Shown here: one piece after another, positions 4,825-58,505 of the stretch
Layout of the letters: every line of letters begins with the position of its first letter
Position numbering within the stretch: position 1 is the first letter of the stretch
NCBI RefSeq assembly: GCF_030464365.1
Contig: NZ_VCYI01000004.1
Span: 1-64,000, forward strand
Direction of reading: 5' to 3'
Source of the DNA: Methanoculleus methanifontis
GTDB taxonomy: Archaea; Halobacteriota; Methanomicrobia; Methanomicrobiales; Methanoculleaceae
DNA length: 64,000 nt
Made by a program: the position numbers and the translations under genes
The notes under the pieces: generated by a model
What the model was told of the DNA's origin: nothing
Database searches by the model: none
What the model saw: only the letters and a program-made list of their open reading frames with translations

Positions 4825-5153
4825 CAAGACCTGATCGTGGAGGCATAGACCCAACTCCTGAACTCCGCGGCTCGAAGCCTACGGCTTCTCAAACTCCTTC
4901 CCCAAAGGGAAGTCGTTCTTCGCGTAAGTTAGTAGGTGCAGATAGCAATATAATCTCACGCGAAGCCGCGAAGGACGCGAAGATCGGCTTATCCGAGAGG
5001 GGACCGCCCTTCGCGGCTTCGCGCTCTTCGCGTGAGATGACGATTTATGAGCGATGGTACGGCCTCATGCGAAGTGCGACGGACGGAACGTCCGGGGCAT
5101 GAGCACCGTTAAGTACGAAGACACGAAGGGAATGCGAATCCGGGGAGAAACCG
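4825..5153 (+). repeat. Intergenic palindromic repeats (two families)
   Basis: This 329-base gap has no gene. Its first part (4858-4912) carries short hairpins such as GAAGCCTACGGCTTC and TTCCCCAAAGGGAA, the varied-arm type also seen at 34273, 45962, 52209 and 58425. Its second part (about 4955-5036) is a long interrupted palindrome with TCTCACGCGAAGCCGCGAAG on one side and CTTCGCGGCTTCGCG...CTTCGCGTGAGA on the other, related to 56755-56830. Confidence 0.7.
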
Positions 5154-34243: not shown

Positions 34244-34272
34244 CGTGTCGTTGACCGGGGAGCCGGAAGGCG

Positions 34273-34540
34273 CACGTGAAGTGCGAGCGTAGCGAGCTTG
34301 AGCACCGTAGGCTTCGAGCCGCGACTGTCCACAGGACGGGAGCGTGAGAAGCCGTAGGCTTCGAGCCGCGAAGAGCGCGAAGTCTGGTTAACGGGTGCTG
34401 GCAGCCTCTTTGCGCAATTCGCACTCTTCGAGTGCTCAAACTCCGTTCCTCGAAACCCTTTGGGTTTCTCGAACTTCTGTCCTTCAGACAGTCGTTCCTT
34501 GCGGAACGTCGCACTTCATGTGAGGCTATGATGCACGTGA
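34273..34540. repeat. Run of short hairpins with different arms (array 1)
   Basis: Most of the 319-base gap 34244-34562. Hairpins include GAAGCCGTAGGCTTC, GAAACCCTTTGGGTTTC, TGTCCTTCAGACA, TTCCTTGCGGAA and CACTCTTCGAGTG, joined by GAG/CTC-type linkers. Arms differ between hairpins while the centre keeps CC-G-(n)-A-GG or its complement. No gene is present. The gap lies between the convergent rfcL and UPF0146 genes. Confidence 0.65.
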
Positions 34541-45860: not shown

Positions 45861-45972
45861 CCCGTGCACGGATTTCCACTGGATATCGCCCAGGGGGAGG
45901 GGCTGACGGGGCGGGGGGCTTGCCCCCCTCCCCTGTCTCCACGTACTAATGTGTTCGTATAACCCCCACTCG
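45861..45972 (+). repeat. G-rich hairpin element, copy B
   Basis: Same layout as copy A: an upstream CACGGATTTCCAC-type block, GATATCGCC, GGGGCTGACGGGG, the stem GGGGCGGGGGG...CCCCCCTCCCC and TGTC (core 45900-45938). The loop is CTTG rather than GCAT. The downstream arm ends in AACCCCCACTCG, where the hairpin array begins. In the 667-base convergent gap 45705-46371. Confidence 0.75.
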
Positions 45973-46315
45973 AAGACCTCCAGTCTTCGAGCCGGAGCGT
46001 GAGCACCGTGAGGTGCGAAGAACCGGAGCAGGAGAAGACCGAAGGTCTTAAGACTAGCGACTGACCGAAGGTGCGATGTTCCGGAGAACAACTCCCAGGA
46101 CGACAGGAGCCTGAGCACCGTTAGGTGCGGGGGCAGGAGACCGAGCACCGAAGAACGACGTTCCTTCAGGATGCGACGGTTCGTCAAAATCGGAGCTGGA
46201 GAAACCGGAAGGGTTTCGGGAATGGAGTTTGAGCACCGGAGGTGCAAAATGCGATGCTCCGGAGGAGCGGAGCACGAGAAGCCGTGAGGCTTCGAGGTGC
46301 GCAGCCTCACGATCC
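45962..46315. repeat. Run of short hairpins with different arms (array 2, longest)
   Basis: At least eight short hairpins in 350 bases, among them GCACCGTGAGGTGC, AGACCGAAGGTCT, GCACCGTTAGGTGC, AAACCGGAAGGGTTT, GCACCGGAGGTGC, GCTCCGGAGGAGC and AAGCCGTGAGGCTT. Arms change in both halves together while CCG-(n)-A-GG stays. Spacers are rich in GGAG/GAGC. No gene is visible. It follows G-rich copy B. Confidence 0.7.
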
Positions 46316-46371
46316 ACTGCACTGGACTTTTGATCGAGTCCTGCCCGTCCTACTATGCACCACCTAACCCT

Positions 46372-52158: not shown

Positions 52159-52208
52159 CATGACTGCCCCCCGCCCCAAGGGGCGGGGAACGACTGCTGG
52201 AACAGCAG

Positions 52209-52262
52209 GAGTTTGAGCACCGAAGGTGCGGAGGAGGAGGCCGAAGGCCGGGTGGGGTGGGG
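52209..52262. repeat. Short hairpins with different arms (array 3)
   Basis: GAGCACCGAAGGTGC and GAGGCCGAAGGCC follow one another, preceded by CTGCTGGAACAGCAG (52194-52208). These are the same CCG-A-GG-centred hairpins as arrays 1 and 2 and lie about 50 bases from copy C. Confidence 0.6.
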
Positions 52263-58368: not shown

Positions 58369-58505
58369 TGGACCGTGGTGGCTATCGCGTCTGGGGGAGG
58401 GGTTTCAGGGGAGGGGGGAGACCCCCCTCGAAACTCTTCGAGTTTCTCATGCTCGCTGCGCTCGCACTCCCCTTTGTCCCCACCCCCCATGGCGATACCC
58501 CCTCG
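58369..58505 (+). repeat. G-rich hairpin element, copy D
   Basis: TATCGC, GGGGGAGGGG, GGGGAGGGGGGAGACCCCCCT and later GCGATACCCCCTCG follow the order of copies A-C. The right stem arm is interrupted: short hairpins (58425-58475, with CTCGAAACTCTTCGAGTTTCTC) are inserted before CCCCTTTGTCCCC. In the 417-base convergent gap 58228-58644; no gene is seen. Confidence 0.75.

Follow-up and report, generated by a model that had tools for sequence, protein, structure and literature searches.

What kind of element keeps the fold of a hairpin while the sequence of its arms changes? The question is raised by positions 45962-46315 of the window, by which we mean the whole stretch of 64,000 nucleotides of Methanoculleus methanifontis that was analysed (contig 25 in our scan of the 2.61 Mb genome, which has 30 contigs). 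A first-pass annotation had described at least eight hairpins here in about 350 bases, with arms that differ but always meet at a fixed centre. Using a stem of at least 5 Watson-Crick pairs and a loop of 3-6 nucleotides, we find nine independent stem-loops in the interval, compared to 1.3 on average and at most 6 across 1000 dinucleotide shuffles. The five arm pairs that had been named are all located there: GCACC/GGTGC at 46003, 46115, and 46233, AGACC/GGTCT at 46035, AAACC/GGTTT at 46201, AAGCC/GGCTT at 46278, and GCTCC/GGAGC at 46256. The hairpins are present, but the region is more aptly seen as several double-hairpin units, partly decayed, in a larger spacer repeat than as "an array of eight hairpins"; the spacer repeat was recognised by its GGGGGAGGGGCTGACGGGG core and the rPQS loop CTGAC (PMC8044849). 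The features are as follows.

45866..46330, no strand assigned: G-rich (rPQS-like) spacer element enclosing the array, approximate, ends set by eye
45962..46315, plus strand: array of partly decayed double-hairpin units, 9 hairpins vs 1.3 in shuffled sequence
45969..45991, plus strand: hairpin CTCGAAGAC-CTCCA-GTCTTCGAG, from the stem-loop scan
46003..46016, plus strand: type B hairpin TGA-GCACC-GTGA-GGTGC-GA
46035..46049, plus strand: type B hairpin AAGACC-GAA-GGTCTT, with decayed 3' clamp
46077..46090, plus strand: type A hairpin, decayed, TGCGA-TGTTC-CGGA-GAACA
46115..46128, plus strand: type B hairpin TGA-GCACC-GTTA-GGTGC, which has lost its 3' clamp
46177..46192, plus strand: type A hairpin TGCGA-CGGTT-CGTCAA-AATCG-GAGC
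46201..46217, plus strand: type B hairpin GGA-GAAACC-GGAAG-GGTTTC
46233..46245, plus strand: type B hairpin TGA-GCACC-GGA-GGTGC
46255..46269, plus strand: type A hairpin TGCGA-TGCTCC-GGA-GGAGCG-GAGCA
46278..46293, plus strand: type B hairpin CGA-GAAGCC-GTGA-GGCTTC-GAG

Taken as a whole, the array is predicted to fold better than every shuffle on both strands, with shuffle-corrected z-scores of -3.9 on the plus strand and -5.4 on the minus strand. Because the score is larger on the minus strand, the preference for the GA strand described below rests on the units, and not on the array.

A typical unit is a double hairpin of ~45-50 bp, NGC-GA-[stem A]-GA-GCN-TGA-[stem B]-GA, and loci read side by side follow the alternating grammar TGCGA-[stem A]-GAGCNTGA-[stem B]-GA(A/G). 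Examples of stem A are CTGTCC/GGACGG, CGGATG/CATCCG, CGTTCC/GGAACG, CTTCCCC/GGGGAAG, and CGCTTC/GAAGCG; examples of stem B are GCACC/GGTGC, GAAGCC/GGCTTC, GAAGACC/GGTCTTC, GAAACCC/GGGTTTC, GAAACTC/GAGTTTC, and GAAAACGC/GCGTTTTC. The base of the stem is flanked by GA on either side, which gives two tandem G·A mismatches, a clamp through which the fixed linkers pair with one another. Neither this second fixed part nor the double-hairpin unit appeared in the first-pass annotation. In type A, pairing resumes outside the clamp (TGC/GCA, CGC/GCG, AGC/GCT, GGC/GCC, AAC/GTT), and these outer pairs covary: position 4 is Watson-Crick in 34 of 45 cases vs 18 when shuffled, and position 5 in 26 vs 13 (p<0.0005, with 0 of 2000 shuffles reaching the observed values). 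For type B, the case for outer pairs is less strong. At the other end of the stem, the loops of 118 units include 59 G-N-A and 28 G-N-N-A, so that G(N)NA accounts for 87 of 118, and 78 of these 87 sit on a C-G closing pair; the tetraloops are mostly GNYA, with GNRA in only 5 of 28. The fixed centre proposed earlier exists, but stems ending in TC, GC, or TG occur as well (AAACTC-GAA-GAGTTT, AAAACGC-GAA-GCGTTTT, CGGATG-GGA-CATCCG), which corrects the centre from CCG-(n)-A-GG to C-G-N(N)-A-G.

The core units carry 38 distinct arm pairs. Within ten arm families, the matching arm is found in 98 of 99 units, compared to ~33 expected by random re-pairing (arithmetic from the counts), and the single chimera lies in the window near 34302. 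This bears out the earlier proposal that both arms change together and, given how varied the stems are, that structure is kept rather than stem sequence. Near-perfect stems on the GA strand contain ~17 G·T mismatches vs 4 A·C, several of them at one recurrent position. Stability predictions favour the GA strand over its complement in 93 of 96 distinct units under DNA parameters, and in 69 of 96 under RNA parameters. In many copies of one type A stem family, for example in L001 (CTGGCC-GAA-GGGCAG) and at G000:C5:54217-54329, a G.G mismatch persists at the fourth pair.

Genome-wide, the pattern GAGCACCGN{0,5}AGGTGC, which represents a single stem variant, has 165 matches, and its reversed control has 0. 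The remaining statistics are based on 464 kb of the own genome and ~750 kb of relatives, with genes called by a home-made hexamer caller. The first-pass annotation had raised an equal rate in coding or shuffled DNA as the observation that would count against it; instead, 66 kb of intergenic DNA contain 72 GA-flanked hairpins vs 52 in 398 kb of coding DNA, and all 464 kb contain 124 vs 45 in a Markov simulation. Among the flank classes of intergenic hairpins, GA/GA ranks first, with 72 vs 19 for the next independent class. In a structure-free test, 2748 anchors were picked by the linker GAGYNNGA alone. They yielded 84 hairpins of type B, 82 of type A, and 34 double hairpins, against maxima of 4, 27, and 0 in three controls. 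As copies are related, these counts, like those of matching arms, mismatches, and strand stability above, are of sequences and not of independent events. About half of the units of type B have the GCACC stem, so some of the resemblance simply reflects recent copying.

The same type had also been reported at 4858, 34273, 52209, and 58425. The first three exceed their shuffles (p 0.007, 0.006, and 0.001, respectively), whereas 58425, a single hairpin, is not significant alone (p 0.09), yet has the anatomy of the family. The units at these loci are listed here.

4868..4920, minus strand: double-hairpin unit AACGA-CTTCCC-TTTG-GGGAAG-GAGTTTGA-GAAGCC-GTA-GGCTTC-GA, within a 9-mer spacer element
34249..34373, plus strand: units within a 9-mer spacer element, including the chimeric hairpin GCACC-GTA-GGCTTC (about 34302-34316)
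34412..34500, minus strand: opposite-strand units GCACTC-GAA-GAGTGC and GAAACCC-AAA-GGGTTTC
52189..52232, plus strand: double-hairpin unit AACGA-CTGCTG-GAA-CAGCAG-GAGTTTGA-GCACC-GAA-GGTGC
58424..58470, minus strand: unit TGCGA-GC-GCA-GC-GAGCATGA-GAAACTC-GAA-GAGTTTC-GA, within a G-rich spacer element

Units are mostly intergenic, with hairpins numbering in the hundreds between genes, and two larger repeats host them. One is the 9-mer spacer element, CACGCGAAG-AACGCGAAG-CCGCGAAG..., and the other is the G-rich element GGGGAGGGGCTGACGGGGAGGGG, whose sequence agrees with the rPQS published for Methanomicrobiaceae (PMC8044849). The G-rich element that hosts some arrays, including the one at 45962-46315, is the rPQS sequence with its CTGAC central loop; the rPQS, however, is a fixed-sequence G-quadruplex/GC-hairpin repeat, and variable-stem inserts are not mentioned in the part of that source available to us (PMC8044849). 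The 9-mer element consists of (NN)CGCGAAG, repeated and inverted, at 4955-5040 and 34365-34500 of the window and at 64153-64488 of C1 (L034). It hosts many hairpin units, and is itself present or absent across relatives.

Comparison with relatives indicates that the units move. The gene adjacent to the array has its closest relatives in Methanoculleus (protein identities of 93% in sp. MH98A and M. chikugoensis, 91% in M. sediminis, and 90% in sp. Afa-1). The equivalent spot in relatives holds other inserts or none, ranging from a short element-free spacer to ~600 bp with hairpins placed elsewhere. The right half of the array has a near-identical copy at the equivalent place in M. chikugoensis (L052); no plasmid relatives of the array were found. 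More generally, even close species differ in where their units lie. The evidence for mobility comes from orthologous comparison only, in which diverged spacers were compared by a gap-tolerant pairwise scan; "exact empty sites" within the genome are mostly trivial, because the 9-mer target is itself repeated. Against G030, whose flanking gene is 95% identical, two orthologous 9-mer elements differ by clean unit insertions of 82 and 83 bp, one of which is best read as two separate insertions. As the orthologous sites are empty in G030, the units are mobile, and parsimony suggests a direction (gain here vs loss in G030) for both differences. Junctions lie at GA words in two unrelated targets: the last bases of the left flank are GCGAAG or, in the rPQS, GGGGA, and those of the insert are CGA or CGA(A)G. 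Short direct repeats containing GA are found at the junctions, ambiguous between target and element; no terminal inverted repeat or fixed-length target duplication is visible, and the junctions slide within GA/CGAAG/GCGAAG.

Copy number also differs greatly among species. Units are abundant in most congeners and few or absent in G023, G020, and G002; they are present in one neighbouring genus (G035) and rare in the rest of the order (5 copies in G071, 1-2 in two others), and in a 394-genome sample of the phylum, the matches elsewhere are only single strays. Some contigs end inside arrays of 45-47 bp tandem units (G000:C9:1-171, G000:C13:1-71, and G033:C11:14-491, with 11 copies), and true arrays may therefore exceed their assembled length. 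In profile searches, the Y1 transposase (PF01797) was absent from the own genome and from most hairpin-rich relatives. A RAYT/Y1 transposase was considered as the mobiliser and rejected, since the gene was not found here and is present mainly where hairpins are few. Within Methanoculleus, Y1 transposases and hairpin units more or less exclude each other (G020, G023, G002 vs G000, G030, G019).

With the anatomy, arm pairing, mostly intergenic sites, mobility, junction direct repeats, and copy-number differences as the computed observations to be explained, we read the units as dispersed DNA repeats defined by folded shape, selfish and copied by template switching, at a probability of roughly 0.45. 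In phage N4 promoters, a C-G..A-G centre lets short inverted repeats extrude from negatively supercoiled DNA in vivo, and the remaining stem bases are free so long as they pair (PMC4496689). The C-G-N(N)-A-G loop is of a type known from unusually stable DNA hairpins, and the tandem G·A clamp should stabilise one strand only; the N4-type loop together with a one-strand clamp favours DNA hairpins. The hairpins may act as DNA, either by extruding when DNA is negatively supercoiled or by folding on single-stranded intermediates of replication. A folded unit could then redirect DNA synthesis, leading to template switching at short GA/GCGAAG homologies, which might account for self-copying, tandem arrays of 45-50 bp, transposase-free insertion, the short direct repeats, and the loop-centred chimera. 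While stems drift, templated correction from arm to arm would restore complementarity. The units may chiefly be selfish passengers carried by the two larger spacer elements. That copying proceeds by template switching is our conjecture, and a structure-specific recombinase, its chief rival, could leave much the same traces.

On one hand, the clean orthologous insertions, the recurrent insertion beside GA words, and the large differences in copy number would also be expected if an enzyme that recognises folded single strands, a transposase or recombinase of HUH or integrase type, mobilised miniature elements in trans, with the clamp and loop as recognition features. Single-strand transposases use short guide and target words, to which the fixed words flanking the hairpins are similar. 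On the other hand, a search for Y1_Tnp, the enzyme for which we looked, came up empty here and in most hairpin-rich congeners, the Y1-rich genomes G020, G023, and G002 have few or no units, and the insertions show neither a fixed terminus nor a fixed-length duplication, and we regard such an enzyme as rather unlikely. The GC-rich spacer DNA itself must also be considered, since 66 kb of GC-rich intergenic DNA hold ~1000 short dyads; chance dyads are nevertheless refuted by the controls (165 vs 0, 9 vs 1.3, and 34 vs 0), which leaves that origin scarcely conceivable. Another proposal is that the units are host-functional DNA sites that bind a nucleoid protein or topoisomerase or absorb supercoils, as proposed for bacterial BIMEs. 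The retention of structure as the stem drifts and the stable loops, which suit supercoil-driven extrusion, would fit such a role, as would the distribution of units among intergenic regions of at least 150 bp: 15 of 64 tandem, 11 of 35 convergent, and 4 of 45 divergent regions contain units, which are rarer between divergent genes (4/45 vs 26/99, p 0.025). Near-absence from congeners G023, G020, and G002, and positions that differ between close species, speak against it, and we think this improbable.

A reading of the units as RNA elements fares slightly worse still. Transcript hairpins that bind protein, guide processing, or protect mRNA ends would be consistent with the tolerance of G.T (G.U) pairs on one strand, with the greater stability of the GA strand under RNA parameters too, and with single units that lean towards the direction of tandem genes (30 same vs 17 opposite). 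By region, however, orientation relative to tandem genes is unbiased (7 same, 6 opposite, 2 mixed), hairpins in the phages described below are likewise mixed (26 to 21), and units are frequent between convergent genes in either orientation. No U-tract follows the units: TTTT within 15 nt on the 3' side occurs in 0 of 125 on the GA strand, and in 6 on the other strand. The tetraloops are mostly GNYA and not GNRA, and the C-GNA-G loop is of the DNA-extrusion type (PMC4496689). Rfam matched tRNAs alone in the window, and the hairpins of five other loci were without a match. Intrinsic terminators were ruled out on the same absence of TTTT from the GA strand.

How, then, do repeats defined by folded shape compare with known systems? 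The REP/BIME/REPIN families are similar in being 20-40 bp intergenic palindromes of high copy number, often paired and absent from most divergent promoters (PMC3733652). They differ in having a one-sided unpaired GTAG/CGTC tag and family-conserved stems, whereas the units have a two-sided G.A clamp and free stems; GTAG-type REPs also come with a Y1 RAYT transposase (PMC2817692), while the Methanoculleus genome has no Y1 gene. The units share with REPs that they are small intergenic palindromes of high copy number, but membership fails on transposase, tag, and stem conservation. This agrees with the earlier statement that they are unlike REP/BIME or ERIC repeats, as stems are variable and the Y1/RAYT gene is absent here and in most hairpin-rich relatives. 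The double-hairpin elements of Allomyces mitochondria (Paquin et al. 2000) and the hairpin-forming elements of sponge mitochondria (PMC2800124) are, as far as these sources were available to us, short, intergenic, scattered, and clustered, differ between close species, and have no known enzyme. The likeness is one of description, with no descent claimed; those elements belong to an organelle, and the parts of these sources available to us describe no G.A clamp or G..A loop grammar. Two features of the double-hairpin class are found here, namely two adjacent hairpins as the repeated unit (34 vs 0) and presence or absence between relatives (82/83 bp). The promoter hairpins of the N4 virion RNA polymerase have the C-G..A-G loop with a sheared G.A pair, partly free stems, and, in N4, extrusion at physiological supercoiling (PMC4496689). 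This loop on a free complementary stem is present in the units too (G(N)NA in 87/118, 78 closed by C-G), but N4 has three fixed promoters in one phage, without a basal clamp and not dispersed, while the Methanoculleus units have no polymerase link. We consider the mitochondrial double-hairpin/hairpin-forming element the nearest kind (PMC2800124), and the REP family the nearest by size and number (PMC3733652).

Dispersed hairpin repeats are a known kind; what is new is the clamp-plus-loop grammar and its recurrence in phages. Integron attC sites resemble the units in being read as folded single strands, with structure kept while sequence varies, but they are longer and have conserved R/L boxes and extrahelical bases. 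In line with the first-pass view that no established description fits, no paper on the family, in archaea or in these phages, was found in the literature searched, which was mostly outside subscription journals. Bacterial and archaeal dispersed repeats are normally sequence-defined and tied to a transposase, whereas here the non-Watson-Crick modules are fixed and the Watson-Crick stem drifts in matched pairs. If folding at the DNA level is confirmed, the units would be evidence from nature that cells form short DNA hairpins frequently enough for these to shape how genomes evolve. As a search rule, GA-stem-G..A-stem-GA finds what sequence-based repeat finders miss.

A parallel case was found by scanning viral contigs with the commonest hairpin (GCACC) as bait. 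The matches fall in a set of contigs of ~38% GC and up to 327 kb (IMG/VR 3300044644_001125, the 327-kb record, 3300044655_001269, 3300043539_001010, and 3300046010_005467), which encode tail sheath, portal, and PhoH-like proteins, and therefore represent tailed phages with contractile tails. The stem-free pattern RYGA-N5-GNTA-N5-GARY has 54 sites in the 327-kb record vs 1 in the control. Across the four records, all five stem pairs are perfect in 65 of 76 sites, with 11 different stems; with identical sites removed, 19 of 27 are perfect vs 1.8 by re-pairing, and one site covaries to ACGA/GAGT. GCACC is the commonest phage stem in this stem-free scan too, although the records were found by that bait. 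No named phage relatives of the hairpin-bearing contig were found, and when a single 30-nt hairpin was compared with phages and plasmids, all matches were weak and of the kind that chance produces. The recurrence of the Methanoculleus design in unrelated phages points to selection on DNA shape and not on sequence, and suggests a general principle. It is possible, though we hold it doubtful, that the tandem G.A clamp and C-G(N)NA-G loop with a free stem mark a shape-defined class of DNA repeat that separately arose or was acquired in archaeal chromosomes and large tailed phages, and that spreads with no dedicated transposase.

Spacers of these phages contain dozens of NGC-GA-[5 bp free stem]-GNTA-[stem]-GA-GCC hairpins (L149, L130, L139, L147, L126, and other loci), and locus L100 resembles a fusion of the flanks of two L094 hairpins, as if these were recombination points. 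PeSL cassettes of T4-like phages are likewise intergenic stem-loops linked to gene shuffling, but are promoter-terminator composites as described in the part of the source available to us (PMC4503421). A Polynucleobacter-1 RNA (RF01718) in the 327-kb record (L101:1362-1512, 80 bits against a cut-off of 37) hints at a freshwater bacterium as the phage host. At L139:4795-7935 on the minus strand, a phage portal protein of 1047 aa has a match to an HNH endonuclease in mid-protein, and possibly contains an intein.
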